This document shows, one piece after another, positions 1 through 12,717 of a stretch of 12,717 bases of DNA. This DNA is from Desulfobacteraceae bacterium. Its GTDB lineage: Bacteria > Desulfobacterota > Desulfobacteria > Desulfobacterales > Desulfobacteraceae. Position numbers and translations under genes: made by a program. Numbering within the stretch: the stretch's first letter is position 1; the number at the start of each line of letters is the position of its first letter. A model generated the notes under the pieces. That model saw only the letters and a list, made by a program, of their open reading frames with translations. It was not told where the DNA came from and searched no databases. The DNA lies in contig WFQS01000585.1 in NCBI GenBank assembly GCA_015486915.1, forward strand, positions 1-12,717. The letters run 5' to 3'.

Positions 1-120
1 GATATTGAAATTAAAACCCTTGAAAAGTCAGGATTTAAGACGGTAAGCCTTGGCAAAAGAATTTTAAGAACTGAAACGGCTGTGCCGGTTTTAATTTCGA
101 GACTCACAACATTAAGATAG
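1..120 (+). CDS. rsmE: 16S rRNA (uracil-1498-N3)-methyltransferase, C-terminal end only
   Basis: The window opens inside a reading frame that gives 39 residues and then a TAG stop. The segment [11 protein letters not shown] followed by a hydrophobic helix is the typical C-terminal signature of RsmE, the SPOUT-fold enzyme that uses S-adenosylmethionine to methylate N3 of U1498 in 16S rRNA. That conserved stretch is part of the trefoil knot that binds the cofactor in the family. The start and most of the protein lie outside the window, so completeness cannot be judged. The next gene follows on the same strand after 84 bases that hold a short repeat copy, so they need not be one operon. The family call rests on this one motif. 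Confidence 0.75.
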
Positions 121-145
121 TCATTGTTTCATCGTTACAATTTTT

Positions 146-168
146 TATAACCGCCATGAGGCAGATCT
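146..168 (+). repeat. Dispersed short repeat, copy A (5' half only)
   Basis: The copy begins TATAACCGCCATGAGGC and continues as AGATCT. It belongs to a family with six other copies here (1991-2053, 2468-2527, 3379-3406, 5153-5216, 11950-11975, 11978-12057). TATAAC and ATGAGGC are invariant in all seven. GCC and GGC flank an ATGA loop and can form a short hairpin. The 3' half of the full element (GCCTCA plus a small A/T hairpin) is missing here. It lies in the leader of the lytic transglycosylase gene. Confidence 0.7.
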
Positions 169-204
169 TAACATTAAAAATTAATATTTTATAATTATGA
201 AAAA

Positions 205-825
205 ATGCAGATCAGAGATATTTTAAAAACCGGTTTTAAATTCTGTATAATTGCAGCATTATTCTGCTTTATCTCGTCGTGTAAAGTATCCGCTGATATT
301 TATAAATTCATAGACAGTAATGGTGTGGTAAATTTTACCAATGTTCCTACATCATCTAATTATAAGCTTTATATCAAAGAAATACCCGATCAAAATTTGT
401 ATAAAAATGATAATGCAGAATTTGATTCATTGATAAAAAAGGCTTCTCATAAATTTAACGTCGCTTTTCCTCTTGTCAAAGCTGTGATTAAAGTGGAATC
501 GAATTTCAATCCCCATGCTGTGTCATCAAGGGGCGCCAGAGGATTAATGCAGATCATGCCGGATAATTATAAAAAACTTTATGTCGCAGATCCGTTTAAT
601 CCTTTCCAGAATATTATGGGAGGAACACGGCACCTTAAACAGCTTCTGACACATTACAATGGCAAACTGCCTCTTGCCCTTGCAGCATATAATGCAGGAA
701 CCGGTGTCGTAGACAGGTATAGAAACATACCTCCTTTTAAGGAGACAAAGGATTATGTAAGAAAAGTGATGAAGCTTTATAATATATATAATTATAAAAT
801 AAGGATCGGAGATGAAATAAATTGA
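205..825 (+). CDS. Exported lytic transglycosylase (SLT domain) with N-terminal DUF4124-like segment
   Basis: This 206-residue protein cleaves peptidoglycan between MurNAc and GlcNAc, forming 1,6-anhydro-MurNAc ends. Residues 10-30 form a signal sequence. Cys26 in FISSC could be a lipobox; VSA just before Asp31 could instead be a signal peptidase I site. Residues 31-58 (DIYKFIDSNGVVNFTNVP) resemble DUF4124, a domain often found before SLT domains. The catalytic domain spans about 72-195: Glu98 in KVESNFNP is the expected catalytic acid, followed by GARGLMQIMP (110-119) and AAYNAG (160-165). No clear Shine-Dalgarno site precedes the ATG. The last codons (about IGDEIN plus stop) lie inside the 162-bp repeat at 802-963, so the natural C-terminus may have been replaced. 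Family assignment is firm; substrate details are not visible. Confidence 0.9.
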   Translation: MQIRDILKTGFKFCIIAALFCFISSCKVSADIYKFIDSNGVVNFTNVPTSSNYKLYIKEIPDQNLYKNDNAEFDSLIKKASHKFNVAFPLVKAVIKVESNFNPHAVSSRGARGLMQIMPDNYKKLYVADPFNPFQNIMGGTRHLKQLLTHYNGKLPLALAAYNAGTGVVDRYRNIPPFKETKDYVRKVMKLYNIYNYKIRIGDEIN

Positions 826-963
826 ACAGAAATAGCGCAGAATTCCGGCCCATGTACAAGGCGCATTAAAGGTTGCATACTCAATGTATTCGGCCTTTGA
901 TGCAACGAAGTAGATGGGCCGGAAGACAAGCAATTTCGTTCAACTTATAAAATTTTCGATCCT
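802..963 (+). repeat. 162-bp palindromic MITE-like repeat, copy 1
   Basis: The element runs from AGGATCG to CGATCCT. Its outer about 31 bases form imperfect terminal inverted repeats (ATAAATTGAAC against GTTCAACTTAT). Inside, CCGGCCCAT and ATGGGCCGG make a perfect 9-bp pair, and GTTGCAT and ATGCAAC a 7-bp pair. A second copy lies inverted at 4618-4780 and is about 95% identical by eye. The dinucleotide TA flanks both ends of this copy, which would fit a TA-targeting transposase, but copy 2 does not clearly show the same. No transposase is encoded. The short open frames through it are not gene-like in context. Confidence 0.85.
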
Positions 964-1079
964 TAAATCCAATGCAGACTGAAATTTCATAAAATCAATC
1001 GGTTCTGTTTGTGTTGTCCAACCAAGTTCATCCGGTGTCCTGTCAAATTTATCTCTGTTGTTTAAACAGCAGAATCTCC
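940..1079 (-). pseudogene. Possible remnant of a small gene downstream of galU
   Basis: On the minus strand, right after the galU stop codon, there is an AAGGAG-like ribosome site and then an open frame of 47 codons that looks coding, with a segment reading NNRDKFDRTPDELGWTT. It has no ATG, GTG or TTG at a sensible distance. One of the neighbouring frames opens with CTG-CTG-TTT-AAA and stops within eight codons, as if a base had been gained or lost. The frame ends at a TGA inside the 162-bp repeat, so the repeat may have truncated the gene. I do not recognise the family, and it may be chance. Confidence 0.25.
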
Positions 1080-1958
1080 TTATTTATCAATATTCAAATG
1101 CATTGTTTTAATAAATTCCGTGAGTTTTTCTTTCAGTTCGGGACGTTCCATGGCAAATGCCATATTGGCCATCTGAAAGCCCGCCTTATCGCCGCAGTCA
1201 AACCGGTTTCCCTGAAATTTATAACCGAATATGGGCTGATTTGTCAGTAATTGTTTCATGGCATCTGTGAGTTGAATTTCGTTGCCTGCACCGGCCTCTA
1301 TTCTGCCAAGTATATCAAAAATTCTCGGGGTAAGAATGTATCTGCCTATGATTGCAAGATTTGAGGGAGCTTTTTCCGGCTCAGGTTTTTCAACCATGTT
1401 TTTGATGCGGACAACATCTTCCTCTATTGCATCAGCATCAAGTATTCCATATTTGTCGGTCTGATCATTTGCCACTTCCATGACAGCAACAATGGACGCT
1501 CTGAGCCTGTCAAATTTATCCACCATCTGGGACAGGACAGGAGTTTCAGACTGGATAAGGTCATCTGCAAGCAGGACGGCAAAGGGTTCATCTCCAACAA
1601 TATCCCGGGCGCACCATATGGCATGCCCTAATCCAAGTGGTTCATTCTGGCGTGTATATATTATTGTTCCTGTTTTAGGGACAAGATCCTTTACCTGCCG
1701 CAGCAATTCTTCCTTTTTCTTGTTCTTAAGGGCAACCTCCAGTTCAAAGGAGCGGTCAAAATGGTCTTCAAGAGCTTTTTTACCCCTGCCCGTGACAAAA
1801 ATAATATACTCTATACCTGCAGCAAATGCTTCTTCAACGGCATATTGAATAATAGGTTTATCAACTACGGGAAGCATCTCTTTTGCCATGGCCTTTGTTG
1901 CAGGAAGAAATCTTGTTCCAAGACCTGCAACGGGAAACACTGCTTTTCTGATTTTCAT
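1080..1958 (-). CDS. galU: UTP--glucose-1-phosphate uridylyltransferase
   Basis: This 292-residue cytoplasmic enzyme makes UDP-glucose from UTP and glucose 1-phosphate, feeding polysaccharide, LPS and glycolipid synthesis. The N-terminal nucleotide-binding signature is complete: FPVAGLGTRFLPATKAMAKE (8-27) followed by MLPVVDKP (28-35). LGLGHA (108-113) and LLADDLI (129-135, with the metal-binding Asp) follow. GNEIQLTDAM and GNRFDCGDKAGF near the C-terminus are typical of bacterial GalU. Length is normal for the family. An AGGAGAAT ribosome site lies two bases upstream of the ATG (1961-1968 on the complement). A same-strand copy of the short dispersed repeat (1991-2053) occupies the leader. 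A possible gene remnant follows the stop codon. No operon partner is evident in its current state. Confidence 0.95.
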   Translation of the reverse strand: MKIRKAVFPVAGLGTRFLPATKAMAKEMLPVVDKPIIQYAVEEAFAAGIEYIIFVTGRGKKALEDHFDRSFELEVALKNKKKEELLRQVKDLVPKTGTIIYTRQNEPLGLGHAIWCARDIVGDEPFAVLLADDLIQSETPVLSQMVDKFDRLRASIVAVMEVANDQTDKYGILDADAIEEDVVRIKNMVEKPEPEKAPSNLAIIGRYILTPRIFDILGRIEAGAGNEIQLTDAMKQLLTNQPIFGYKFQGNRFDCGDKAGFQMANMAFAMERPELKEKLTEFIKTMHLNIDK

Positions 1959-1990
1959 AAATTCTCCTGTAGGCTGTTTTTTTTATGTTT

Positions 1991-2053
1991 ATCAAAATCT
2001 CTGATTTTTGAGGCAAATCCGGGCAAATTCCGGTCGGCCTCATGGTCGTTATA
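1991..2053 (-). repeat. Dispersed short repeat, copy B (full length)
   Basis: Read on the minus strand, the copy starts TATAACGACCATGAGGC and ends GCCTCA plus AAAATCAGAGATTTT. TGAGGC and GCCTCA can pair over about 22 bases. The AAAATC/GATTTT hairpin is intact. It lies in the leader of galU in the same orientation, about 33-95 bases before the start codon, so it may be transcribed with the gene. Confidence 0.75.
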
Positions 2054-2063
2054 AATATTTGCG

Positions 2064-2083
2064 ATAATTATTGAAATAATTAT
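2064..2083. repeat. Perfect 9-bp inverted repeat upstream of galU
   Basis: ATAATTATT and AATAATTAT are separated by GA. The spacing and symmetry resemble an operator for a dimeric regulator near the galU promoter region, but A/T-only palindromes arise easily in AT-rich DNA. A T-run follows on the plus strand, so a weak terminator is also possible. Confidence 0.3.
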
Positions 2084-2195
2084 TATGTTTATTTTTTTAA
2101 GTCCAATCTTTTTTTAATCTTTTTTTAATTTTACCCGATTTGTTTAAACTTTCCGTTGGATTTGAGATCTAAAAACAAATCACAACACTCCCTGA

Positions 2196-2224
2196 TTGAC
2201 TTTATACTTTTATAATTATATTAA
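2196..2224 (+). promoter_or_regulatory. Candidate sigma70-type promoter
   Basis: TTGACT (2196-2201), a 17-base spacer and TATTAA (2219-2224) match the -35/-10 pattern reasonably. It lies about 340 bases before the cysteine-cluster gene, the nearest plus-strand gene. The rest of 2084-2467 is AT-rich, with a small TAGCAT/ATGCTA hairpin at 2316-2331 and no gene that I can support. Confidence 0.35.
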
Positions 2225-2467
2225 TGCATTGAAAAAAATACTAAAAATACGTAAATTTTCGACTTTATAATGTAAATTTTTGGCAGTGGTTCATATTCGT
2301 CTATTTGGGATTGTGTAGCATACTAATGCTATATGAACAGGTCAAAATGGGCGAAAATGGAGTGCTGGCAGAATATTTACCAAAATACGAAACTGACTCT
2401 TATGATCACATAAAGTGAAAAGAGTTTTTTATAAGAAAGAGTTCATTTTTGATAAAAGTAACTGATG

Positions 2468-2527
2468 CTCTTTTTATGTTCGTTGAGAGGCACTTAACGC
2501 AGTTCAGATCGGCCTCATGGCAGTTAT
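2468..2527 (-). repeat. Dispersed short repeat, copy C (3' hairpin deleted)
   Basis: Read on the minus strand this begins TATAACTGCCATGAGGC and continues CGATCTGAACTGCGTT, then GCCTC. It matches copy G (11978-12057) closely, including the following CGAACAT and AAGAGCAT, but lacks the A/T hairpin that sits between GCCTC and CGAACAT in copy G. It ends just before the ribosome site of the cysteine-cluster gene, in opposite orientation. Confidence 0.75.
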
Positions 2528-2563
2528 ATGAAAGGAAAAGATTAAATTGAAGGGGATATGTTA

Positions 2564-3376
2564 ATGGAGTCCAAGTCTGAAAATGAAAAAAAATCGGAAA
2601 TTTTACCTGTCCAGTTGAGTTATGACAGTAAATTTCATTTCCAATGTCACAAGGGAATAAGCTGTTTTACCAAATGCTGCAGGGGAATTGATATAATGCT
2701 TACCCCGTATGATATTCTTACACTTAGAAAAAAACTGGAGCTTTCTTCAGAAGAATTTCTTGCAATTTATACGGAATTAAAATTGCTGAAGAAAGCCGAT
2801 CTTCCAATTGTTACAATGAAATTATTGGATGATGAACAGAAATCATGCCCTTTTGTCAGGGATGACAAAGGATGCATTATTTACGAAGATCGGCCCACCA
2901 CCTGCCGCTATTACCCCCTTGGTATGGGGTCATTGAGTTATTCAGGGCATTCCAATGATGAACAGGATCAGGAATCGGATAAAAACGATGAATTCTTTTT
3001 CATGGTTAAAGAAGATCATTGTCTTGGATTTGAAGAAAAAAAAGAATGGACAGTTGCAGAATGGCGTGAGGACCAGGGCGTGGATATCAGGGATGAAGTT
3101 AATGCCGGATGGACAGATCTGATAGTAAGAAAAAAATCTGTCCCTGCATCCATAAAATTATCTGAACAGAGTAAGCAGATGTTCTTTCTTGCCTGTTATA
3201 ATATTGATAAATTTAAAAAGTTTGTCTTTGAAAGCAGTTTTCTCGATCGCTATGAAGTTGATCAAGCCAGGATTGATGAGATAAAAAACGATGAAATAAA
3301 ACTTCTCCAGTTCGGGTTTGAATGGATACAATACATTTTTTTTCAAAAAGGCGGGTTCAAAGTCAAGACAAAATAA
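2564..3376 (+). CDS. YkgJ-family cysteine cluster protein (UPF0153-type, probable metal or Fe-S binding)
   Basis: The family pattern is clear. Numbered from the ATG two codons upstream, Cys30, Cys36, Cys40 and Cys41 (CHKGISCFTKCC) are followed by Cys97 (CPFV), Cys106 and Cys116 in TTCRYYPLG, which fits the YkgJ/CxxxCC layout. These cysteines are thought to bind zinc or an iron-sulfur centre; the biochemical role of the family is not established. The C-terminal half (about 150-272) is acidic and lysine-rich with no recognised domain, making the protein longer than minimal members. I chose the second ATG at 2564 because AGGGG at 2551-2555 is then 8 bases away, against 2 bases for the ATG at 2558. 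There is no signal peptide. It stands alone between minus-strand galU and dapA. Confidence 0.8.
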   Translation: MESKSENEKKSEILPVQLSYDSKFHFQCHKGISCFTKCCRGIDIMLTPYDILTLRKKLELSSEEFLAIYTELKLLKKADLPIVTMKLLDDEQKSCPFVRDDKGCIIYEDRPTTCRYYPLGMGSLSYSGHSNDEQDQESDKNDEFFFMVKEDHCLGFEEKKEWTVAEWREDQGVDIRDEVNAGWTDLIVRKKSVPASIKLSEQSKQMFFLACYNIDKFKKFVFESSFLDRYEVDQARIDEIKNDEIKLLQFGFEWIQYIFFQKGGFKVKTK

Positions 3377-3378
3377 AA

Positions 3379-3406
3379 TTTATAACGGCCATGAGGCCGT
3401 TATAAA
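3379..3406. repeat. Dispersed short repeat, copy D (perfect hairpin form)
   Basis: TATAACGGCC and GGCCGTTATA flank the ATGA loop as a perfect 10-bp stem, extended to 12 bp by TT and AA. Only the 5' hairpin of the family is present. It sits directly after the stop codon of the cysteine-cluster gene and next to the dapA terminator, so it may help end plus-strand transcription or protect the 3' end. Confidence 0.7.
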
Positions 3407-3440
3407 AAAAAGGGGACAGCCATTTCATCGCTGTCCCCTT
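3403..3440. terminator. Rho-independent terminator between ykgJ-type gene and dapA
   Basis: AAGGGGACAGC (3410-3420) pairs perfectly with GCTGTCCCCTT (3430-3440) around a 9-base loop. On the minus strand the stem is followed at once by a run of T (complement of 3403-3409), a textbook terminator for dapA. On the plus strand the T-rich tract starts a few bases later (GAATTTATTTTTT), so it may also stop the cysteine-cluster gene. Confidence 0.85.
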
Positions 3441-3492
3441 GAATTTATTTTTTCCTGATTCCTTACCTTACCTTGTTCCTGTCATGGCAGTA

Positions 3493-4527
3493 TTAATAAT
3501 CGTACCATAATCCTTTTTTTGATTCCGGATCTGTCAGTTGTTTTTCTATGTCAATATTAAAAAAATCTGCAAGGGGTTCAAATATTGCCGGATTTTCCGC
3601 CTGAATTTTCTGCGCGATGCTGATCACCCTGTCAAGTCCGTTTTTTGTCATTTTCCCTACGGGTCTTCTGCATTTGCCGGAAGGCATGCCGAGAACCTGC
3701 ATCAATGTTTTAAGAGGAAGAGGGTTTCTTGCCCTGCATTTTACTTTTCCAAATGGCGTTGACTCCTCTGTAATGACAGTAACAAGGCCAAGAAGGGGTT
3801 TAAGCGCTTTGTGAAGTTTTTCAGCTTCTGGCATATTCCCCTCATTGATGTGCATGACCATATCGGTAAGTGCTTTTGGTGCAATATTTGTGACAACTGA
3901 GATAACTCCGGAGGCTTTAATCTCAGGGTCAGTCATCATGGTAAATACAAGGCCGTCGTCTCCGGAAAAAATTGAGAAATCATCTCCACAGCATTTTCTC
4001 GTCTGTTTCATGTTTTCAATATTTCCTGTAGCCTCTTTTACCGATGAAACATTTTTATATTTTTCTGCAAGAATTCCAAGGTCTTCAGGCAGTAACTGCG
4101 TACCTGTTCTTCCCGGGATGATGTATGGAATAATCTCCATTTCCGGAAAAGCCTCTGCAACGGGTTCAATATATTCCTTTCTTATTTCAAGGGAGCTTGG
4201 TCCGTTGTAATACGGGTCGACCATGAGAACTGCATCTGCGCCTGTATCCGATGCATTCTTTACTGCCTCAAGGGCTTCTTCGGTGTTATTGCTGCCGGCA
4301 CCTGCAATGCATAGGCATTTGCCCTTTGTGCCGTTTGCAACATCTGCAACCACTCTGTTGTGTTCCTCCCATTGCAGGGCAGGGCTTTCACCCGTTGTTC
4401 CAACGGCAAGTATTCCCGTGATATTATTTTTGATCTGGAATTTGATGAGCTGATCAAGACCGTCGGTATCAAGCTCCCCATTGCCGTTAAATGGTGTAAT
4501 AAGTGCTGTATAACATCCCTTTTTCAT
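3493..4527 (-). CDS. dapA: 4-hydroxy-tetrahydrodipicolinate synthase, with C-terminal extension
   Basis: DapA condenses pyruvate with aspartate semialdehyde, the first committed step of lysine and diaminopimelate synthesis, in the cytoplasm. Numbering from my chosen start, the TIM-barrel active site is intact: Thr44-Thr45 in VGTTGES, Tyr107 in PYYNGP, Tyr135 and Arg140 in YIIPGRTG, and the Schiff-base Lys164 in SVKEATGN. The usual YNVPGRT has Ile in place of Asn here. At 344 residues it is some 50 longer than typical enzymes (about 292); the extra part is C-terminal and ends near ESKKGLWYDY. An upstream ATG would add MLGVF, but the AGGAG ribosome site lies within those codons, so the start is at 4525-4527. 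A tandem 18-bp repeat lies upstream. A neighbouring family (N-acetylneuraminate lyase-like aldolases) is the main alternative. Confidence 0.88.
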   Translation of the reverse strand: MKKGCYTALITPFNGNGELDTDGLDQLIKFQIKNNITGILAVGTTGESPALQWEEHNRVVADVANGTKGKCLCIAGAGSNNTEEALEAVKNASDTGADAVLMVDPYYNGPSSLEIRKEYIEPVAEAFPEMEIIPYIIPGRTGTQLLPEDLGILAEKYKNVSSVKEATGNIENMKQTRKCCGDDFSIFSGDDGLVFTMMTDPEIKASGVISVVTNIAPKALTDMVMHINEGNMPEAEKLHKALKPLLGLVTVITEESTPFGKVKCRARNPLPLKTLMQVLGMPSGKCRRPVGKMTKNGLDRVISIAQKIQAENPAIFEPLADFFNIDIEKQLTDPESKKGLWYDY

Positions 4528-4559
4528 AAAGACTCCTAACATTAGTGTATGAATGATTT

Positions 4560-4595
4560 TTTTGTTTTAACGATTACTTTTGTTTTAACGATTAC
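4560..4595. repeat. Perfect tandem 18-bp duplication upstream of dapA
   Basis: TTTTGTTTTAACGATTAC occurs twice in succession (4560-4577, 4578-4595). It lies 33-68 bases before the dapA start codon on the minus strand, in the expected promoter region. It could be a paired regulator site or a simple replication slip. No better promoter is obvious. Confidence 0.6.
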
Positions 4596-4617
4596 TTCAG
4601 ATAGTCAGATTATTTTT

Positions 4618-4780
4618 AGGATCGAAAATTTTATAAGTTGAACGAGATTGCTTGTCTTCCGGCCCATCTACTTCGTTGCATCAAAGGCCGAATACGTTGA
4701 GTATGCAACCTTTAATGCGCCTTGTACATGGGGTAAGAATCCTGCGCTATTTCTGTTCAACTTATTTCATCTCCGATCCT
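4618..4780 (-). repeat. 163-bp palindromic MITE-like repeat, copy 2 (inverted relative to copy 1)
   Basis: The reverse complement aligns end to end with 802-963. Differences are a few substitutions and one small indel around the inner palindrome, where copy 1 has TTCCGGCCCAT and this copy has TTCTTACCCCAT. That change breaks one arm of the inner stem, so copy 2 folds less perfectly. The outer arms AGGATCG and CGATCCT are intact. Flanks are TT on the left and TA on the right, so no clear target duplication is seen. Confidence 0.85.
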
Positions 4781-4900
4781 TAGCGGTTAAAATTTTCGTC
4801 TTTATTGAATTAAAACGAAACCAGGCATTCTGAAAAGATCTCCATACAAATTATGGATATACAAAAAATTAATGACAGTTGATAACAGACCTGTTTGGTA

Positions 4901-4984
4901 TCATATATTGCCTTCCAGTTCAAGCTTCTTTTTTCCTTTCTCCATGTGGTATAAATTTAATTCTGTTCCTGTAAATTCAATATG
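4901..4984 (-). pseudogene. Possible tiny gene remnant upstream of dapA
   Basis: An open stretch of 27 codons on the minus strand, bounded by TAA and TGA, reads like protein (segment IEFTGTELNLYHMEKGKK) in otherwise structureless DNA. The only ATG within it would give 14 residues, without a convincing ribosome site. It could be the decayed end of a gene cut off by the nearby 163-bp repeat, or chance. The rest of 4781-5020 holds nothing that I recognise. Confidence 0.15.
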
Positions 4985-5023
4985 TTAATATCGTCCACTG
5001 ATGATATAGCAAGGCTTTTTTTC

Positions 5024-5052
5024 TTGACAGAAAGGGCGGTTAAAAATACAAT
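5024..5052 (+). promoter_or_regulatory. Strong sigma70-type promoter for the TPR gene pair
   Basis: A perfect TTGACA (5024-5029), an exactly 17-base spacer and TACAAT (5047-5052) are present. Transcription should start near 5059, giving a leader of about 220 bases to the TPR gene. Within that leader, AAACC/GGTTT (5072-5076 with 5088-5092) precedes a run of T at 5090-5097, so part of the transcription may end early. Repeat copy E lies further down. Confidence 0.7.
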
Positions 5053-5152
5053 GGCGCAAAAATTAATTGTCAAACCGCCTGTTAAAGGGTTTTTTTTATT
5101 TTTTAAATTTTAACGGCCATAAATATAGGGCCGAAGGCGCGAAGCCAATTCT

Positions 5153-5216
5153 TATAACGGCGATGAGGCAGATCTGGATTGGCCAAGATTTGCCTCAAAG
5201 AATCAAAGATTCTGAC
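5153..5216 (+). repeat. Dispersed short repeat, copy E (full length)
   Basis: Starts TATAACGGCGATGAGGC and ends GCCTCA plus AGAATCAAAGATTCT. TGAGGCAGATCT can pair with AGATTTGCCTCA over 12 bases with one G-T wobble. The small hairpin has AGAATC/GATTCT, where other copies have AAAATC/GATTTT: a paired change that preserves the stem. It lies in the leader of the TPR gene. Confidence 0.8.
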
Positions 5217-5277
5217 AAAAAATGAAAGTCACACGTTTTTTTACAAAGACTTTCTTATAAAAAAAAGGAATAAGCAA

Positions 5278-5943
5278 ATGGGAAATGATGATAAACCGCA
5301 GAATGCTGATGAATATATTGCAATGCTGCGTTCACAGGTAGCACAGAACACGGAATGCGGAACAACATATTATAATCTTGCCGTGGCTCTTCTCGGTAAA
5401 AAAGAATATAAGGAAGCGGAAGATGCGCTGCACGATGCTGTGGAGTGCACGCCCAACCTTGCAGAAGCATATGTCCTTCTCGGTGGGATCTGCCTTAAAA
5501 ATAATGATCTTGAAGGTTGTCTTAAATACAATAAAATTGCCGTTAAATCAAGGGCAGGTTTTGCAGAAGGGTATGGCAATATAGGCTTTATTTTACTCCA
5601 GCAGTGCACAGGACAGGATAGTGCGGCTGATGAGGACCGACTTGAAAATGCCATTAAAAATCTTCAGAAGGCAGTGGTTTTTAATCCGAAATTTGTCCAG
5701 GCTTTTACAACCCTTGGCACGGCGTATTTTATGAAAGGACTTATTGACGAAGGCATTGCTGCAAATCTCAAGGCGGTGAGCATTGAACATGATTTTCCCA
5801 TAGCCCATAATAATCTTGCTGTGGCATATCTTGAAAAAGGGGAATTTGAAAAATCCATAGAACATTGTGATAAAGCTGAAAAACTCGGATTTAAAGTCCT
5901 TGACCAATTAAAAAAAGAACTTGAGCCCCATAGAAAAAATTAG
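5278..5943 (+). CDS. Tetratricopeptide repeat (TPR) protein
   Basis: A soluble 221-residue protein made of about five TPR units, at roughly residues 28-60, 63-94, 97-133 (with an insert around SAADEDRLEN), 137-170 and 171-204. Each shows the usual small/large helix-pair pattern, for example YYNLAVALLGKKEYKEAEDAL and AHNNLAVAYLEKGEFEKSIEH. TPRs are protein-binding scaffolds; the partner is not visible. There is no signal peptide or membrane segment. The frame extends upstream to a TTG at 5179, but that stretch is repeat copy E; the ATG at 5278 has AAGGAA 8-9 bases before it and is the likely start. Its stop codon touches the start of the next gene, so the two are almost certainly co-translated and may act together. 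The dsr promoter follows those genes, so a link to sulfite reduction is possible but unproven. Confidence 0.85.
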   Translation: MGNDDKPQNADEYIAMLRSQVAQNTECGTTYYNLAVALLGKKEYKEAEDALHDAVECTPNLAEAYVLLGGICLKNNDLEGCLKYNKIAVKSRAGFAEGYGNIGFILLQQCTGQDSAADEDRLENAIKNLQKAVVFNPKFVQAFTTLGTAYFMKGLIDEGIAANLKAVSIEHDFPIAHNNLAVAYLEKGEFEKSIEHCDKAEKLGFKVLDQLKKELEPHRKN

Positions 5944-7164
5944 ATGGCAGATCCTTTATTCAGATACCATGTTCCTGGAAATTCCGGATTTGTCGATCCG
6001 GCATCTTTTCTATGGGACACACCGCTTTCAGGGAAACCTGACAGAAGTTCCGGAAAGATCACCTCTCAATTTTTAATAAAAAATTATTTTGAATCTGCAA
6101 AAAAATTTATTCAGCTTTACGATTATAAGATTTTAAAGAAAGGACTGAAATTTAATCTTAAAAAAAATATTTCTTTTACTGATATCTGTCATATTGATAT
6201 TTCCCTTGAAAAACACGGGGCCTTTTATCATCCTGCAAAAATAAGCGTTGAGCTGAACAATGGCAGAATTTTATTCTTTGTTTTGAATGCGGCTGTGTCC
6301 GATGCAGGACTTGCCCTTATTGAAAACGAATACAACACCTTGTCAAAATTGAATAAAAACAATGCAGAATCTTTGATTCCCCGGGTTTTCGGCATGGGAA
6401 AAGTTAATACAGAAAAAGGCTGTGCAGCTTTTTTCCTTGCCGAGTGGTTTAATGATTTTCATGAATTTCATGTCACATCTTCTTCAATTAACTCTGATGA
6501 TGAAAAAAAAATCGGATTATGGGAATCCAATGGTACAATTTCCAAAATTTTATTTCCAAATTATCTGACTATATACGAAAAAGCATCTGAAATTCTTACA
6601 AAATTTTATAAACCTGAAAGCTTTGAGCAGATTTTTCCATGGCATCACGCCGCAGGTGATTTTGTAGTAAAAAGAACGGGCAACGGTTTTGACGTGCGCC
6701 TGATCACAGTCAGAAATTATGGTGCCCTGTTTGGAGCGGTTCCTGATTCACAAGAGTCTGGATCTTCGGAAGCGTTTGGCTCAATGGAAGAGAATAATGA
6801 ACTTATGCTGCACGGACTTCTTTTTTTCTATCTTAATCTCTCCGTGAGAATGCGTGTTGACAGAATTGACGGAACAGGAAACTATTGTCTCATCGACTCA
6901 AGAGTTATCGCTTCTGTTTTAAAAGGCTTTTTAAGAGGACTGTCAAAGAAATATCTGTTAGACGGGACTCAAAAAGACGGGATTCAAAAAAATACTGCAG
7001 ATATTTTTCTTCAATTCGCAGGGCAGTTCAGTTTTGATGAATTCCATGACATGCTTGTAATGATAGTGAATTCATACAATAAAAATGCACCCGAGATGAC
7101 AATTATAAAAGCAAATCTCCTTAAGCACAGTAAACTTTTATTTAAAAAAACATGCATGATGTGA
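5944..7164 (+). CDS. Protein of unknown function, tentatively degenerate kinase-like (APH fold), upstream of dsrA
   Basis: A 406-residue soluble protein with no signal peptide; I do not recognise a named family. Its segment order recalls aminoglycoside-phosphotransferase or protein-kinase folds: a strand FFVLNAAVSD (111-120), a helix ending IENEYNTL (126-133), PRVFGMG (146-152), a hinge-like FFLAEWFNDFHEFHV (163-177), then PWHHAAGDFVV (232-242) where a kinase has its catalytic HGDxxxxN loop, and VRLITVRNYG (251-260) where DFG would be. No strand-3 lysine or DFG is visible, so if the fold is right the protein may not phosphorylate. The C-terminal third is helical. The ATG directly follows the TAG of the TPR gene with no own ribosome site, implying translational coupling. 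The dsr promoter starts 16 bases after its stop, with no terminator between, so read-through into dsrAB is likely. Confidence 0.7.
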   Translation: MADPLFRYHVPGNSGFVDPASFLWDTPLSGKPDRSSGKITSQFLIKNYFESAKKFIQLYDYKILKKGLKFNLKKNISFTDICHIDISLEKHGAFYHPAKISVELNNGRILFFVLNAAVSDAGLALIENEYNTLSKLNKNNAESLIPRVFGMGKVNTEKGCAAFFLAEWFNDFHEFHVTSSSINSDDEKKIGLWESNGTISKILFPNYLTIYEKASEILTKFYKPESFEQIFPWHHAAGDFVVKRTGNGFDVRLITVRNYGALFGAVPDSQESGSSEAFGSMEENNELMLHGLLFFYLNLSVRMRVDRIDGTGNYCLIDSRVIASVLKGFLRGLSKKYLLDGTQKDGIQKNTADIFLQFAGQFSFDEFHDMLVMIVNSYNKNAPEMTIIKANLLKHSKLLFKKTCMM

Positions 7165-7180
7165 AAAATATGCTTTTTTA

Positions 7181-7209
7181 TTGACAAGTCTCTGCAGAAA
7201 CTTTATACA
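7181..7209 (+). promoter_or_regulatory. Probable dsr operon promoter
   Basis: A perfect TTGACA (7181-7186), a 17-base spacer and TATACA (7204-7209) form a near-consensus sigma70-type promoter on the coding strand of dsrA. The predicted start near 7216 leaves a leader of about 260 bases. High expression would fit DsrAB, one of the most abundant proteins of sulfate reducers. Confidence 0.75.
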
Positions 7210-7272
7210 AGCTCTATTAATCTGTTAGGTGGTATGATTTATAATTCTGGTAACTCTAATTTTAGAAAGATT

Positions 7273-7370
7273 ATGATGGCCTGATATGGTATATTTTACA
7301 TATAGATCATCATAGCAACCTTATCCGGGGTGCTTTACCTGGATTAATAATTGTAAGCATGGCTATTGAT
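7273..7370 (+). promoter_or_regulatory. Leader region with mutually exclusive hairpins before dsrA
   Basis: Three pairings are visible. ATGATG (7273-7278) can pair with CATCAT (7308-7313), with an inner ATATG/CATAT. ATCCGGG (7323-7329) pairs with CCTGGAT (7338-7344), with one G-T wobble. ATAGC (7312-7316) pairs with GCTAT (7362-7366), enclosing the second stem. The first and third use overlapping bases, so they cannot coexist. I do not recognise a known riboswitch. From 7371 to 7465 the leader is AT-rich, with a 9-base direct repeat AAATTAACT at 7439 and 7451. Confidence 0.35.
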
Positions 7371-7477
7371 CGGAATTGATGTCCTTTTCCATTTTTTATT
7401 AAAAAATTTAAGGCAAAACAATTTTTATCAAAAAATGTAAATTAACTGTCAAATTAACTATTAACGGAGGTAAGTAA

Positions 7478-8806
7478 ATGGCAAAACATGAAACTCCTTT
7501 ACTGGACCAGCTGGAGTCTGGACCATGGCCGAGTTTTGTCTCTGACCTGAAACAGCAAGCAGAAGTCAGGGCAAAAAATGAAGCAGGTATTGAATTCCAG
7601 ATACCCCAGGATTGCTGCGAAGATCTTCTCGGTGTTCTGGAACTTTCTTACAAACATGGAAGAACACACTGGAAACATGGTGGAATCGTTGGTGTATTCG
7701 GTTATGGTGGCGGCGTTATAGGGCGTTATTGTGACCAGCCGCAGATGTTCCCCGGTGTTGAAGCTTTCCATACGCTGCGTGTAAACCAGCCCGCTGGAAA
7801 ATACTACACCACAAAGTATTTGAGAGATATCATGGAACTCTGGAACCGCAGAGGAAGTGGTCTTACAAATATGCATGGTGCAACAGGCGATATTATTCTT
7901 CTTGGGACAACCACTCCCCAGCTTGAAGAAATTTTTTGGGAGTTGACCCATAATCTGAATCAGGACCTTGGCGGATCAGGCTCCAACCTTCGTACCCCGG
8001 CAGACTGCCTGGGTCAGTCAAGGTGTGAGTTTGCCTGCTATGACACCCAGGATCTCTGTCATTTTCTGACTAATGAGTATCAGGATGAGCTTCACCGCCC
8101 TGCATTCCCGTATAAATTTAAATTTAAATTTGACGGATGTCCTAACTGCTGTGTTGCATCAATTGCACGTTCTGACATGTCCTTTATCGGTACATGGAAA
8201 GATGATATCAGAATTGATCAGGATGCAGTGAATAAATACGTAGAAAATGATGCTGCATATCCTCCTGAAGGCGGAGCACACAAAGGAAGCAGAGACTGGG
8301 GTGAGTTTGACATAGAAAAAGAGGTTCTTGATCTCTGTCCCACACACTGCATGAAATTTGAGAATAAAAAACTCTATATTGATGATGCAAACTGCACACG
8401 CTGCATGCACTGCATAAATGTAATGCCAAGGGCTTTAAAACCAGGCAAGGAAAAAGGATGTTCAATTCTTATAGGTGCAAAGGCTCCTATCCTTGACGGT
8501 GCACAGATGGGATCACTTCTTGTTCCTTTTATGCCGGTTAACGCTGAGAATGACTACGAAGAAATTACTGATCTTATTGATAAAATATGGGATTGGTGGA
8601 TGGAAGAGGCCAAGAACCGCGAAAGAGTTGGCGAGCTTCTCAAACGTCAGGGCTTCCAGAAACTGCTTGAGGTTACAGAACTTGAAGCACTGCCCCAGCA
8701 TGTCCAACATCCGAGGGAGAACCCCTATATCTTCTGGAGAGAAGATGAAGTACCAGGCGGCTTTACCCGTGACATTAAAGAATTCAGAAAATTTCATCAG
8801 AGATAA
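7478..8806 (+). CDS. dsrA: Dissimilatory sulfite reductase, alpha subunit
   Basis: DsrA pairs with DsrB in an alpha2-beta2 enzyme that reduces sulfite, passing sulfur to DsrC, in the cytoplasm. The 442 residues show the full family layout. Cys177, Cys183, Cys221 and Cys225 (DCLGQSRC and GCPNCC) bind the [4Fe-4S] cluster next to the haem site, and the numbers match the Desulfovibrio vulgaris protein. An inserted ferredoxin domain at about 284-318 has Cys287 and CTRCMHC (306-312) for a second cluster. The N-terminal half contains the basic, glycine-rich KHGGIVGVFGYGGGVIGRY (66-84). GGAGG at 7466-7470 lies 7 bases before the ATG. It is first in the dsrA-dsrB-dsrD-dsrN series, 15 bases before dsrB. 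Presence of DsrD supports the reductive type. Nothing is truncated. Confidence 0.98.
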   Translation: MAKHETPLLDQLESGPWPSFVSDLKQQAEVRAKNEAGIEFQIPQDCCEDLLGVLELSYKHGRTHWKHGGIVGVFGYGGGVIGRYCDQPQMFPGVEAFHTLRVNQPAGKYYTTKYLRDIMELWNRRGSGLTNMHGATGDIILLGTTTPQLEEIFWELTHNLNQDLGGSGSNLRTPADCLGQSRCEFACYDTQDLCHFLTNEYQDELHRPAFPYKFKFKFDGCPNCCVASIARSDMSFIGTWKDDIRIDQDAVNKYVENDAAYPPEGGAHKGSRDWGEFDIEKEVLDLCPTHCMKFENKKLYIDDANCTRCMHCINVMPRALKPGKEKGCSILIGAKAPILDGAQMGSLLVPFMPVNAENDYEEITDLIDKIWDWWMEEAKNRERVGELLKRQGFQKLLEVTELEALPQHVQHPRENPYIFWREDEVPGGFTRDIKEFRKFHQR

Positions 8807-8821
8807 GGAGGGAGAATAACA

Positions 8822-9970
8822 ATGGCATTTATATCATCTGGTTATAATCCAGACAAACCGATGGAGAACAGGATTACAGACATCGGCCCAAGAAAATATG
8901 ATGAATTTTATCCTTCTGTAATTGCAAAGAATAAAGGCAAATGGGCATACCACGAGATCCTTGAGCCTGGCGTACTTGTACATGTTGCAGAATCAGGAGA
9001 TGAGGTTTATACAGTCAGGGTTGGCGGCGCACGTTTCATGAGTACAACCCATATTGAAGAAATCTGCCAGATTGCTGACAAGCACTGTGACGGACATCTT
9101 CGTTTTACAACAAGAAACAATATTGAGTTCATGGTTGATTCCAAGGACAAAGTAGAGCCCCTTAAAAATGATCTCAAAAGCAGAAAATTTGCCGGCGGCA
9201 GTTTAAAATTCCCAATTGGCGGAACAGGCGCAGGTATCACAAATATAGTTCATACCCAGGGCTGGATTCACTGCCATACACCTGCAACGGATGCTTCAGG
9301 TACAGTAAAGTCTACAATGGATGCACTGTTCAGTGATTTCCAGGATATGAGACTTCCTGCGCATTTAAGAGTTTCCATGGCATGCTGTCTGAATATGTGC
9401 GGTGCTGTTCACTGCTCTGATATCGCAATCCTCGGTTATCACAGAAAACCCCCGATGATTGACCATGAATACCTTGATAAAATGTGCGAGCTTCCCCTTG
9501 CAGTTGCAGCATGCCCGACTTCTGCAATTAAACCGGCCAAGGTTAAACTTGAAGACGGAACAGAAGTTAAATCAGTTGCTGTAAATAATGAAAGGTGCAT
9601 GTTCTGCGGCAACTGCTACACCATGTGTCCGTCTATGCCCCTTGCAGATGCTGAAGGTGACGGTATTGTTCTCATGGCAGGTGGAAAGATATCCAACACA
9701 AGAAGTATGCCTAAATTTTCCAAGGTTGTTGTTGCGTTTATTCCAAATGAAGTACCAAGATGGCCGACCATGACAGATACCATAAAAAAAATGGTTGAGG
9801 CTTACGCAAAAGGCGCCAATAAATACGAGCGTCTCGGGGAGTGGGCTGACAGAATTGGATGGGAAAAGTTTTTTGAAGTGTGTGAGCTTGATTTTACCCA
9901 TCATCTCATTGATGACTTCCGTCAGCAGGCATATAGCTCATGGCGCCAGAGCTCTCAGTTTAAGTTCTAA
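8822..9970 (+). CDS. dsrB: Dissimilatory sulfite reductase, beta subunit
   Basis: The catalytic partner of DsrA; in characterised enzymes the functional sirohaem sits at the site whose [4Fe-4S] cluster is held by DsrB. The expected ligands are present and at the same positions as in Desulfovibrio vulgaris: Cys151 (WIHCHTP), Cys188-Cys189 (SMACCLNMC) and Cys193. A ferredoxin domain at about 228-270 carries Cys231 (ACPTSA), then CMFCGNC (259-265), followed by Cys269. At 382 residues the length is normal. AAGGAGG ends about 9 bases before the ATG. The gene lies 15 bases after dsrA, in one transcript. A run of T (9971-9979) follows the stop codon without a strong stem before it, and a hairpin at 10013-10048 separates it from dsrD. 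Confidence 0.98.
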
Positions 9971-10012
9971 TTTTTTTTACAGCTTTAACTGAAATTTTAG
10001 TATATTATGATA

Positions 10013-10048
10013 AACAGCCGGAGCGCAGATAAGAGCACTCCGGCTGTT
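10013..10048 (+). terminator. Hairpin between dsrB and dsrD, possible attenuator or processing stem
   Basis: AACAGCCGGAG (10013-10023) pairs perfectly with CTCCGGCTGTT (10038-10048) around a 14-base loop. Only ATCTTTTA follows rather than a clean T-run, so full termination is unlikely. A partial terminator or a stem that stabilises the dsrAB message would give more DsrAB than DsrD and DsrN. Confidence 0.55.
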
Positions 10049-10088
10049 ATCTTTTAATGGATAAGATAATGGACAGGGAGTAAAAATC

Positions 10089-10346
10089 ATGAGCGATCTT
10101 TTAAATGACAAAGAAGCGGCAAGCAAAGCTGTTGTTGATTTTATTAAAGCTAAATCAAAAACAAAATCAAAATTTTATTTTAAAGATTTTTCCAAGGTGT
10201 TTCCCGATGATAAGCTGAGGGCCATAAAAAAAGTTATTAACCAGATGGTTAAGGATGAAGTCCTTGAATACTGGTCAAGCGGAAGTACCACCATGTATGG
10301 CCTGGCAGGTGCAGGTAAACAGCACGCATCAGAGGGCGAAGAGTAG
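10089..10346 (+). CDS. dsrD: DsrD, small activator of dissimilatory sulfite reductase
   Basis: An 85-residue cytoplasmic protein with the sequence pattern of DsrD, a winged-helix protein found with dsrAB in sulfate reducers. Family work shows that it binds and activates DsrAB allosterically rather than acting as a DNA-binding repressor. Visible landmarks are the helix ASKAVVDFIKAKSKTKSKFY (11-30), KDFSKVFPDDKLRAIKKVIN and the wing VLEYWSSGSTTMYGLAG (58-74). The tail HASEGEE is acidic. Length is close to the usual 78 residues. GGAG at 10077-10080 lies 8 bases before the ATG. It comes 118 bases after dsrB, beyond a stable hairpin, so its dose may be set below that of DsrAB. Its presence marks the pathway as reductive. 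Confidence 0.95.
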   Translation: MSDLLNDKEAASKAVVDFIKAKSKTKSKFYFKDFSKVFPDDKLRAIKKVINQMVKDEVLEYWSSGSTTMYGLAGAGKQHASEGEE

Positions 10347-10404
10347 TTTTAACTTAACTTTTGGATTTGACTGCTGTAATAAATTTACATGTGTTCAGAA
10401 TTGT

Positions 10405-10490
10405 GACAGGGTCAGGCTTTCCTTATCATGCCTTTTTATCTGTTTATACCGGACTTTGATAAAGGCACGATAAAAAGAGCCTGACCTGTC
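10405..10490. repeat. Long imperfect palindrome between dsrD and dsrN
   Basis: GACAGGGTCAGGCT at the left end pairs with AGCCTGACCTGTC at the right end with one bulged G. The inner arms (ATCATGCCTTTTTATC against GATAAAGGCACGAT) pair imperfectly, leaving a loop of about 17 bases. The whole 86-base unit can form one hairpin. There is no T-run after it. It may be a partial terminator, a processing site, or a third non-autonomous repeat family with one copy here. Confidence 0.6.
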
Positions 10491-10548
10491 TATTTGATGA
10501 AATTTGAAGACAAATATTACAATTTAAAAAGAATATTGTGGCTGTACC

Positions 10549-11982
10549 ATGCATCAGACAAAAAGTGTTCCCGGGCTGATAATAGCAGGATTGAGCGGAG
10601 GCTCCGGGAAAACGATCATATCCCTCGGTATAACAGCTGCCTGGAAAAACCTCGATATAAAAGTTGCCTCCTTTAAAAAAGGGCCTGATTATATTGATGC
10701 GGGCTGGCTTGCAAAGGCGGCTGGAAGGCCCTGTTATAACCTTGATACTTACCTTTGTGCCTCATCCGAGGTTAGAAATTCATTTGAAAAATATTCAGTA
10801 AACTCAGATATCGTGCTTGTTGAAGGAAACAGAGGCCTTTATGACGGCATCGATACATATGGGAAAACAAGTACCGCAGAAATAGCAAAATTATTGAATC
10901 TGCCGGTTTTGCTTGTGCTGGACTGTACGAAATCCACCCGCACCATGGCTGCCCTTGTGATGGGGTGCATGCATTTTGATCCTGAACTTGATATTATGGG
11001 GGTTGTACTTAACCGGGTTGCAGGAAAAAGGCATGAGGGCAAGGTAAGGGATAATATAAAAAAATTCTGTAAAATTCCTGTTTTTGGTGCTGTTCCAAAG
11101 CTTACTGGAAAAAACTTCCCCGAGAGACATATGGGGCTTGTACCCTATGTTGAAAATTCTCTTGCTTCGGCTTCCATTGCAGGTGCTGCAAAGATTGCAA
11201 ATAAGCATATTGATCTTGAAGGTATTTACAGAGCCTGCAAACTGAGAGCCGGTAAAATAAAAAATGACGATGATGTTAAGGCCGGGAATGTGATTGAGAA
11301 ACATAAAAAAAAACCCGCAGGCAAATCGTGTGTAATAGGTGTTATAAGGGATTCAGCATTTCAGTTTTATTATCCCGATAACCTTGAAGCCCTTGAGGAA
11401 AAAGGCGCAAAGCTTAAATTCATAAGCCCTTTAAGGGAAAATTTTGTCCCGCCTGTTGATGCCATCTATATGGGAGGGGGGTTTCCTGAAACCCACGCCA
11501 GAGAACTTGCAGCGAATAAAGCCTTTCGTGAAAATCTTAAACATCTTGCTGAAAAAGGACTGCCGGTTTACGCAGAATGTGGAGGATTGATATTCCTTGG
11601 AAAAAATATGAATCTTGACGGTGAGGTGTTTCCAATGGCAGGGATATTGCCGGTGAGTTTCGGCCTTTCAAAAAGACCTGTGGGACATGGTTATACAAAG
11701 GTAAAAGTTATTAATAAAAATCCATTCTATAAAATTGGAGAAACCATTAAAGGCCATGAATTCAGGTACTCGTCAATTATTGATATCGAATACCACAGGG
11801 ATGATATGGCTTTTGCCATGGAAAGGGGAAAGGGAATCATAGATAAAATGGACGGGTTCTGCAGATACAACGTACTTGGGACCTATACACATATTATGGC
11901 TGCGGCCACTCCTTCCTGGGCAGAGTCAATTGTAAAAAAAGCGATCCAGTATAACCGCCATGAGGCGGCCGCTCTGATATAA
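10549..11982 (+). CDS. dsrN: DsrN: CobB/CbiA-type glutamine amidotransferase, probable siroheme amidase
   Basis: The 477-residue protein has the two-domain build of cobyrinate a,c-diamide synthase. The ATP domain shows a Walker A-type GLSGGSGKT (14-22), KKGPDYID (43-50) and EGNRGLYDG (92-100). The class I glutamine amidotransferase domain (about 262-460) shows YMGGGFPETH, the nucleophile Cys344 in YAECGGLIFL, and His448 in LGTYTHIM. The enzyme amidates acetate side chains of a tetrapyrrole using glutamine and ATP. Linked to dsr genes, the homologue DsrN is held to convert sirohaem to the sirohaem amide found in DsrAB, which I prefer over cobalamin synthesis because no other cob gene is near. 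An in-frame TAA lies 21 bases upstream, so the ATG is well fixed despite a weak ribosome site. Residues 468-477 (YNRHEAAALI) and the stop codon come from repeat copies F and G. Confidence 0.9.
   Translation: MHQTKSVPGLIIAGLSGGSGKTIISLGITAAWKNLDIKVASFKKGPDYIDAGWLAKAAGRPCYNLDTYLCASSEVRNSFEKYSVNSDIVLVEGNRGLYDGIDTYGKTSTAEIAKLLNLPVLLVLDCTKSTRTMAALVMGCMHFDPELDIMGVVLNRVAGKRHEGKVRDNIKKFCKIPVFGAVPKLTGKNFPERHMGLVPYVENSLASASIAGAAKIANKHIDLEGIYRACKLRAGKIKNDDDVKAGNVIEKHKKKPAGKSCVIGVIRDSAFQFYYPDNLEALEEKGAKLKFISPLRENFVPPVDAIYMGGGFPETHARELAANKAFRENLKHLAEKGLPVYAECGGLIFLGKNMNLDGEVFPMAGILPVSFGLSKRPVGHGYTKVKVINKNPFYKIGETIKGHEFRYSSIIDIEYHRDDMAFAMERGKGIIDKMDGFCRYNVLGTYTHIMAAATPSWAESIVKKAIQYNRHEAAALI
11950..11975 (+). 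repeat. Dispersed short repeat, copy F (inside the dsrN coding end)
   Basis: TATAACCGCCATGAGGCGG is read in frame as the last residues of DsrN. CCGCC and GGCGG close the ATGA loop; other copies have CGGCC/GGCCG, so the stem is kept by a paired change. Copy G follows 28 bases later in the same orientation, giving a tandem pair. Confidence 0.75.
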
Positions 11983-12057
11983 CGGCCATGAGGCCTATCT
12001 GAACTACGTTCCAGCGCCTCAAAAAATCAAAGATTTTGACGAACATGGAAAGAGCAT
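11978..12057 (+). repeat. Dispersed short repeat, copy G (full length, supplies the dsrN stop)
   Basis: It starts TATAACGGCCATGAGGCC, and its TAA is the dsrN stop codon. GCCTCA and AAAATCAAAGATTTT follow, then CGAACAT and AAGAGCAT, which are shared with copy C. It lies in the 3' untranslated end of the dsr transcript, about 20 bases before the terminator. Confidence 0.8.
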
Positions 12058-12077
12058 TTGTGACTCTGTCAAATTAA

Positions 12078-12116
12078 AAAAAGGCTTTGCCCGGATCAAA
12101 CGGGCAAAGCCTTTTT
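12078..12116. terminator. Strong bidirectional terminator between dsrN and cytochrome c3
   Basis: A perfect 16-bp stem (AAAAAGGCTTTGCCCG, 12078-12093, with its complement at 12101-12116) closes a 7-base loop. T-runs occur on both strands at the stem foot. It should end the dsr operon from the left and the convergent cytochrome gene from the right. Confidence 0.92.
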
Positions 12117-12139
12117 AAGTTTTAACGTTTTTTTAGATT

Positions 12140-12610: not shown

Positions 12611-12668
12611 AATTACTTACACTCCATTAATCGTTAATAATTTGATTCACCCTAACCGTTTTATAAAT

Positions 12669-12691
12669 AAACAGCATTGTCACTGCTGTTT
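12669..12691. promoter_or_regulatory. Inverted repeat upstream of cytochrome c3
   Basis: AAACAGCA (12669-12676) and TGCTGTTT (12684-12691) form a perfect 8-bp dyad with a 7-base spacer, 59-81 bases before the cytochrome start codon. It may be an operator, or a terminator of an upstream minus-strand gene beyond the window. No clear promoter is seen in 12611-12717. Confidence 0.4.
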
Positions 12692-12717
12692 CAGCCATTT
12701 TTTAATAAATCTTATCC

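Follow-up and report, generated by a model that had tools for sequence, protein, structure and literature searches.

Gene-less miniature repeats of Desulfobacteraceae as probable relatives of an IS110/IS1111-kind element

We analyzed a stretch of 12,717 nt from a Desulfobacteraceae bacterium (contig WFQS01000585.1 of assembly GCA_015486915.1; the window hereafter), in which a first-pass annotation had noticed a dispersed, structured repeat. We consider it probable, at around 80%, that the repeats are miniature gene-less relatives (miniature inverted-repeat transposable elements, MITEs) of an RNA-guided insertion sequence (IS) of the IS110/IS1111 kind, mobilized in trans. The repeats and an IS110-family element have common ends, the insertion site and element boundary could be read in two insertions of this parent, the parent has a covarying RNA region, and one segment of that RNA agrees with the left flank. 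From this we infer a guide role of the RNA and movement of the small copies in trans.

The repeat family and an IS110-family element with the same ends

The annotation had placed copies at seven sites. Seven exact cores, TATAACNNCNATGAGGC, do occur on both strands at the places it named (146+, 2037-2053-, 2512-2528-, 3381+, 5153+, 11950+, 11978+), and the observation is confirmed. Its spacing was off by one base: the motif as first written, with NNC, has no match in the window, because four bases and not three separate TATAAC and ATGAGGC. With up to three mismatches, the core search gave 11 matches, against 0.84 expected, and none of 200 shuffles reached 11; the four non-exact matches have three mismatches each. 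A close relative of the window organism, the metagenome-assembled genome (MAG) of Desulfobacteraceae bacterium S145_18 (G001, reached via locus L003), has two contigs aligning at 95-97% to window positions 1-804, 1028-1971, and 5248-12695. In its 2.9 Mb we found 423 core matches with at most one mismatch (224 on the plus strand, 199 on the minus strand) and none with the reversed control, which bears out the idea of a genome-wide, non-autonomous, structured, MITE-like repeat. We extracted 97 chunks of G001 (642,297 bases) by an exact 23-base pattern, so that they are not a random sample. Together with the window they hold 212 cores at up to two mismatches, 122 of which run to the right end. 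These copies measure 82-131 nt, except for two that the search expression delimits at 177 and 241 nt. Window-type copies stay under a few hundred bases and have no transposase gene, as judged among the rows listed for small elements, where 20 of 136 heads had no right end within reach.

Full copies begin with TATAAC-N-GCCATGAGGC and a first hairpin (hairpin 1), followed by GCCTC(A/T)CAACRAA or by a variant that has an additional AGAATC/GATTCT hairpin. The outer stem, of which there are several types (GAAAGAGC/GCTCTTTC, GAAACTC/GAGTTTC, GAAAGTC/GACTTTC), encloses a middle, between TGAAA and TTTCATATAA, that is variable in length and sequence, and then comes TATAA, which chained neighbors have in common. 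The same extra hairpin is found with different outer stems. Wider relatives have a common head, TATAA..CAYG-hairpin 1-CACAAYRAA, and the plan of their elements is TATAA followed by C-N3-CAYG-hairpin 1-CACAACRAA-N3-TGAAA, the variable middle, and TTTCATATAAA. The ends are not the terminal inverted repeats generally expected of a MITE, the left being TATAAC and the right TTTCATATAA. A target duplication is not supported either, since the two bases beside TATAA agree between left and right in 19 of 119 copies. A palindromic element with terminal inverted repeats was rejected, as the symmetry is confined to short forms.

Both compensatory pairs quoted in the annotation (AGAATC/GATTCT against AAAATC/GATTTT, and CCGCC/GGCGG against CGGCC/GGCCG) are present in the sequence. 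Its proposal of two folds, in which GAGGC pairs either with the preceding GCC or with the distal GCCTC, has support from covariation. In the mini-hairpin NGCC-ATGA-GGCM, the base N, which precedes GCC, and the base that follows GGC are paired in 95 of 118 full copies (the two of the window and those of G001), where 39.1 are expected under independence, and the longer hairpin using the same GAGGC covaries as well. The three-way agreement is only partial, as a third segment repeats N in 32 of the 72 copies that could be read. Over 465 distinct heads from many genomes, and uncorrected for relatedness among them, hairpin 1 keeps 4.36 of 5 pairs (arm-shuffled mean 2.84, maximum of 300 shuffles 2.98). 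Scarcity elsewhere in the genome and a lack of covariation in a larger alignment had been named as grounds for abandoning the family; the copies are many and the covariation exceeds expectation in the larger sets.

The ends of the miniature repeats also bound an IS of about 1.75 kb. In genome G059, an IS110-family gene lies between a head and GAGTGTTACATATAA. The gene product has the DEDD/Transposase_20 recombinase of IS110/IS1111, with matches to PF01548 (E 3e-23), PF02371 (E 1e-15), and NF033542 (IS110 family RNA-guided transposase; 242 bits for a cut-off of 140). Aligned identical IS copies with unlike flanks, in G024 (1756 nt, four of the eight top copies), G027 (1752 nt, four copies), and G057 (1746 nt, two copies), are bounded by the head on one side and by GTGTTTCATATAA or GTGTTACATATAA on the opposite side; the same ends are found in G059, G029, G003, and G005. 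The autonomous element can be written as C-N3-CAYG-hairpin 1-CACAACRAA-N3-TGAAACAC, transposase gene, structured RNA, and GTGTTTCATATAAA. Common to it and to the window copies are TATAAC..CAYG-hairpin-CACAACRAA-TGAAA on the left and TTTC(A/T)TATAA on the right. In the IS of G024, TGAAACACT on the left and AGTGTTTCA on the right form subterminal inverted repeats, the match being shorter in other lineages; beyond them the IS extends by about 40 nt on the left, including the hairpin, and about 6 nt on the right. A small element of G059 (L373) has the head of the IS except for two spacer bases.

These ends recur in other lineages at transposase identities of at least 54%. The bases before AAC differ in G014, G063, G037, G039, G044, G054, and G195, the last with GTATTTTCATATAA as its right end. 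IS110 genes of about 38-40% identity (G003 L387 and L400, G463, G465) had no such ends by the expressions used. Among the best 120 of 1545 relatives at E 1e-100, some parent-like proteins are named Desulfobacula or Deltaproteobacteria. In plasmids, the transposase search returned 41 records, all below 60% identity, and window positions 1900-2600 had no match. Six stretches of viral contigs have one core each, the element profile matching only about 20-25 positions there.

The exact 23-base pattern occurs in 104 stretches of the genome collection, including the 97 from the S145_18 MAG. The other seven come from Desulfobacterales GB_4872 (two), Desulfobacula, Syntrophobacterales, two Bacteroidales bins, and one Ruminococcaceae bin, whose stretch has by eye nothing beyond the pattern. 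The head pattern TATAANNNNNCAYGN{6,36}CACAAYRAA matched 323 times in 39 of the 86 genomes of the family (reversed control: 4). It matched in 10 of 395 genomes of a phylum sample (6 control matches), where G195, G250, and G306 have 27, 46, and 63 copies. With its five N this pattern favors TATAAAC heads (14 in G001, versus 361 TATAAC cores), and the right-end expression requires TATAA. Tandem copies are also seen in G306 (e.g., L325, L341, L359); they are mostly spaced by 107 or 114 nt, and their middle part has repeats of 7 nt (CTTACCT, GCTCACG). In G058, the genome with most heads (90), locus L381 on contig C62 holds a decayed fragment of the parent gene and an RNA relic, and the IS may have been lost there after its copies spread; another PF02371 gene lies on contig C63.

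Downstream RNA, insertion site, and proposed mechanism

Between the stop codon of the transposase gene and the right end lies a conserved region that is predicted to form a structured RNA: RNAalifold gave 20 pairs, 11 with two-sided changes, on 19 of 20 sequences, the G058 relic being excluded from the final alignment. Of the predicted stems, one of 8 pairs has an inner hairpin of 7 pairs; it encloses CACAACRAA on one of its sides and CATATAAAAC, in most rows, on the opposite side. Another, of 3 pairs across a portion of CACAAC, shows almost no variation and has no support. Before the 8-pair stem stands a segment such as AATATAACATGAC. In the RNA segment, the three bases before AAC are those of the element's own left flank in all 15 lineages having both parts (TAT in 7, TAG in 1, AAT in 2, and ACT in 5). 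Only 1 of 200,000 permutations, uncorrected for kinship, was as good. This test leaves out G001, whose ends lie on two contigs and agree, G007, whose left end is cut and whose two remaining bases agree, G041, G073, and G026, which have no left end, and the G058 relic. In the transposase tree, G014 (TAG) is placed among TAT lineages with good support, and G044 (AAT) beside ACT lineages with weak support (0.575). A small element of G195 (L334) has ACTAAC at its left, and the RNA of this genome has ACTAAC too. A second RNA segment resembles the right end, CACATAAAA being common to the right end and the RNA in G007. The region thus looks like a bridge RNA or seekRNA, with a putative target part, probably the segment agreeing with the left flank, and a putative donor part, probably the one resembling the right end.

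For the insertion site, the left flank (TATAA included) was joined to the right flank in 14 parent loci. Some frame was open for at least 45 codons on both sides in 5 of the 14. In two insertions into open reading frames (ORFs), L385 and L393, 99 codons, the length tested, are open on each side only if exactly C...TATAAA is removed after TATAA; the empty sites so restored have TATAA, no head, and no duplication. The frame of L384 (65 codons) agrees with this boundary. Insertion without target duplication is thus seen in two of the 14 joins, most of the others being uninformative or short. The element most likely runs from an initial C to a final TATAAA and inserts without duplication. TATAAAC is therefore predicted to mark a junction of a right end and a left end, and in the G001 set 20 of 23 heads with the extra A come after a right end, against 25 of 135 TATAAC heads.

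We propose that an intact IS supplies, now or in the past, the transposase and the RNA encoded downstream of it. Both would recognize the ends of the IS and of a miniature copy equally; a circle would be excised and placed, without duplication, directly behind a short site that is TATAA in most lineages. One RNA segment would read the target and another the right end of the element. Miniature copies would have retained the left head, the subterminal inverted repeat (now the outer stem, changed in sequence), and the right end, while the gene would have been replaced by other sequence. Since TATAAA at the right end repeats the target, each copy would be a landing site for the next, giving head-to-tail chains. 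In experiments, an engineered mini-IS with foreign cargo moved when the transposase and the RNA were given in trans (PMC11187229). We see about even odds for a further step, namely a cassette-like RNA-guided system whose RNA is set for the pentamer repeated by its own right end. Gene-less copies with exchangeable middles would be arrayed at TATAA by the hundreds per genome, and the changes of site along with the RNA segment (TATAA to TAGAA, AATAA, or ACTAA) would be a natural record of reprogramming.

Counterevidence, alternative origins, and the copies of the window

In the 18 of 86 family genomes with the transposase (E 1e-60), heads are commoner than in the other 68 (14 of 18 versus 25 of 68, p 0.003), and the difference is larger for at least five heads (10 of 18 versus 4 of 68, p 8e-6). 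Several points weigh against descent from the IS and mobilization by it. The same counts leave 4 of the 18 transposase genomes without a head by the pattern, and 25 genomes with heads and no transposase. One of the five heads of G029 is the left end of the IS itself, and without it at least five heads are found in 9 of the 18. There is no PF02371 match in G306 (63 heads, one 3.28-Mb contig), G250 (46 heads), G087, or G477. In G001, no whole IS was seen: its right end and most of the gene are on contig C159, the left end and a short gene piece on C237, and hairpin 1 and the outer stem of the window subfamily are unlike these ends. No miniature copy was seen to move. At the sole orthologous place compared, that of window positions 5153-5260 on G001 contig C89, there is different sequence ending in the same terminal TATAA, i.e., no clean presence/absence. 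The RNA and flank test, as said, takes no account of kinship. As for the boundary, the shorter frames of L398 and L405 (47-53 codons) favor other offsets, though they may be open by chance. The joined frame of L385 encodes 538 aa with the junction at 238; its residues 201-289 match Peptidase_M50 (E 2e-5), a match that spans the junction but falls below the curated cut-off (24.5 versus 27.2 bits). Finally, small copies that do not come after a right end have various left flanks in G027, G058, and G059; in G027 these are 5 TATAAC, 6 ATAAAC, 2 AATAAC, 1 ACTAAC, and 1 TGTAAC.

The alternative that fares best, although we think it improbable, is that the repeats are an unrelated family, similar to repetitive extragenic palindromic (REP) sequences, and merely the insertion target of the IS110 element, as QMITE2 is for IS1111 in Coxiella. 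IS1111 does insert into the REP part of QMITE2 (PMC5896051), and many IS copies in our data adjoin elements. However, the head travels with the IS: within genomes and across G024, G027, and G059 it has the same hairpin 1 (TGTCCTAGCGGACA), whereas hairpin 1 differs in the small elements that were listed for G027 and G024. Moreover, the joined flanks of L385 and L393 have TATAA and no head.

We give slightly less credit to a structured RNA or mRNA regulatory element (a terminator or a 5' leader) kept by selection. The strong covariation would suit it, as would the placement of the copies: 101 of 118 outside the window are intergenic, where a simple ORF caller marks 82% as coding, and of the 71 having two neighbors, 50 have a co-directional right-hand gene. 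Yet Rfam gave no match in the window at gathering thresholds, nor in the loci of eight relatives at E up to 1, and mobility is indicated by the chains, by near-identical copies next to unrelated genes, and by the IS that has these ends. The copies may still have a regulatory by-effect. An equally slim chance goes to homologous recombination or gene conversion among repeats, instead of transposition, as the main route by which copies spread and exchange parts. The extra AGAATC/GATTCT hairpin combined with different outer stems, the many copies of G306 in the absence of a PF02371 match, and the different sequence ending at the same TATAA in G001 all fit such exchange, but single copies with differing flanks and a constant TATAA junction need insertion at the site.

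Least credible are REP sequences, bacterial interspersed mosaic elements, or IS200/IS605-type elements moved single-stranded by a Y1 (HUH) transposase: hairpins near both ends, the missing duplication, and the short AT-rich site would fit, and Y1 genes (PF01797, searched in 21 genomes) occur in 6 of 9 and 12 of 12 genomes, but none of 63 Y1 loci (those given or fetched among the Y1 matches) has the element's middle motif on both gene sides by regular expression, four sets of IS200 copies have other ends (by eye), G306 has no replication-strand bias (32+/31-, mixed along the contig; by eye), and a different, IS110-family transposase exists with the same ends. A REP/RAYT (REP-associated tyrosine transposase) or IS200/IS605 origin was rejected on these flanks and ends, and with it the annotation's REP label and TnpA-REP partner, the partner found being the IS110-family transposase. 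REP/RAYT systems comprise hundreds of small palindromic intergenic repeats, as does the present family; the GTAG-type tag was not seen here. RAYT-like Y1 genes at L171 (G001 contig C227) and L170 (G045) have, by eye, sequences of the GGTCGGACC or GGTCGGGCC type close to each end and probably belong to a separate REP system.

The annotation had counted copies B, E, and G of the window as full, but only E and C reach the right end. Copy C (2429..2528, minus strand) is a full 100-nt element with a GAGC-type outer stem and the right end TTATAA. Copy E (5153..5260, plus) is a full 108-nt element with the extra AGAATC/GATTCT hairpin and a GTC-type outer stem. Copies B (1983..2053, minus; left limit by eye) and G (11978..12073, plus; right limit from G001 alignments) have the head, hairpin 1, and an extra hairpin (AAATCAGAGATTT in B); both lack the right arm and right end, and G has the left outer arm. 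The others are shorter still. A (146..168, plus; from the core search and family comparison) is a truncated left head, present also at the orthologous place in G001, where contig C101 aligns with window positions 1-804 and the element profile matches (L202). D (3381..3405, plus) is a short palindromic form with only the mini-hairpin and terminal TATAA, and F (11950..11977, plus) is a left head. A remnant at about 5111..5157 (plus; by eye) has no hairpin 1 and has its right-end TATAA in common with copy E; its GGGCCGAAGGCGCGAAGCC module recurs in G001 copies. Against 200 shuffles, single copies E (z -4.2) and D (z -7.2) fold clearly better, C (z -1.5, 14 of 200 as good) and G (z -1.4, 20 of 200) not clearly so. 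A CbiA/CobB-like ORF (10549-11982) reads through copy F, which provides its final codons, and stops inside the TATAA of copy G (by eye); in G001 (L026), where copy F is also present, the ORF end runs through copies F and G likewise.

Besides the CbiA/CobB-like protein, the window encodes two sulfite reductase-type proteins, DsrD, and a class III cytochrome c, and the host is therefore a sulfate reducer. Other repeats were noticed. Two opposite copies (800-967 and 4614-4782) represent a second dispersed, palindromic family of about 165 nt; G001 has dozens of copies of it at about 91-98%, and G058 has copies that are more diverged. The copy at 800-967 is absent from the orthologous place on G001 contig C101. 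A stretch of about 130 nt (2251-2380) has many 75-85% matches in G058 and represents another dispersed family. An inverted repeat at 10410-10486 starts with GGTCAGGCTTTCCTTAT, and the similar GGGTCAGGCTTTCCTTATTG lies near elements in G001.

Relation to known systems

The IS1111 group with its seekRNA (Siddiquee 2024, PMC11187229) has, like the parent element, a DEDD transposase, a non-coding RNA region downstream, subterminal inverted repeats, and no duplication. Its RNA segments match the top and bottom strands of the target in a set order; in the parent, one segment follows the left flank and a second resembles the right end. Its rule of 7 (or 6) bp on the left and 3 bp on the right beyond the repeats contrasts with about 40 nt, including a hairpin, and about 6 nt here; therefore the parent is IS1111-like and not a typical member. 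In our family, moreover, the right end spells the target and there are hundreds of gene-less copies. With the bridge RNA of IS621/IS110 (Durrant 2024, PMC11208160), the likeness is that one RNA seems to hold both target and donor-end segments. Here the RNA lies downstream of the gene, and whereas the short donor is experimental in that system, we propose natural miniature donors. A term search of the main text of that paper found no MITE.

Bacterial MITEs, as reviewed in PMC10969869, are short, gene-less, mostly intergenic, present in many copies, and have ends in common with an IS, as our repeats do. Unlike them, the present elements have subterminal, asymmetric ends and neither terminal inverted repeats nor target duplication; the term IS110 is absent from that review. 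QMITE2 of Coxiella (PMC5896051) is likewise a miniature repeat closely tied to an IS1111-type IS, but it is the target of the IS, whereas here the ends are common to both. Our search of the open-access literature, mostly of listings, returned no report of miniature elements derived from IS110/IS1111.

IS110-family recombinases with bridge RNA or seekRNA are studied as programmable DNA-insertion tools, and their natural cargo beyond themselves is little described. If our reading is true, genomes of Desulfobacterota are large natural collections of minimal donors, showing which end sequences are constant and which vary. They would also offer natural pairs of guide and site changing together, and reveal the consequences of a donor end that resembles the target. 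The parent belongs to the IS110 family and is IS1111-like by its downstream RNA and subterminal repeats, though not by its long left extension with the hairpin.

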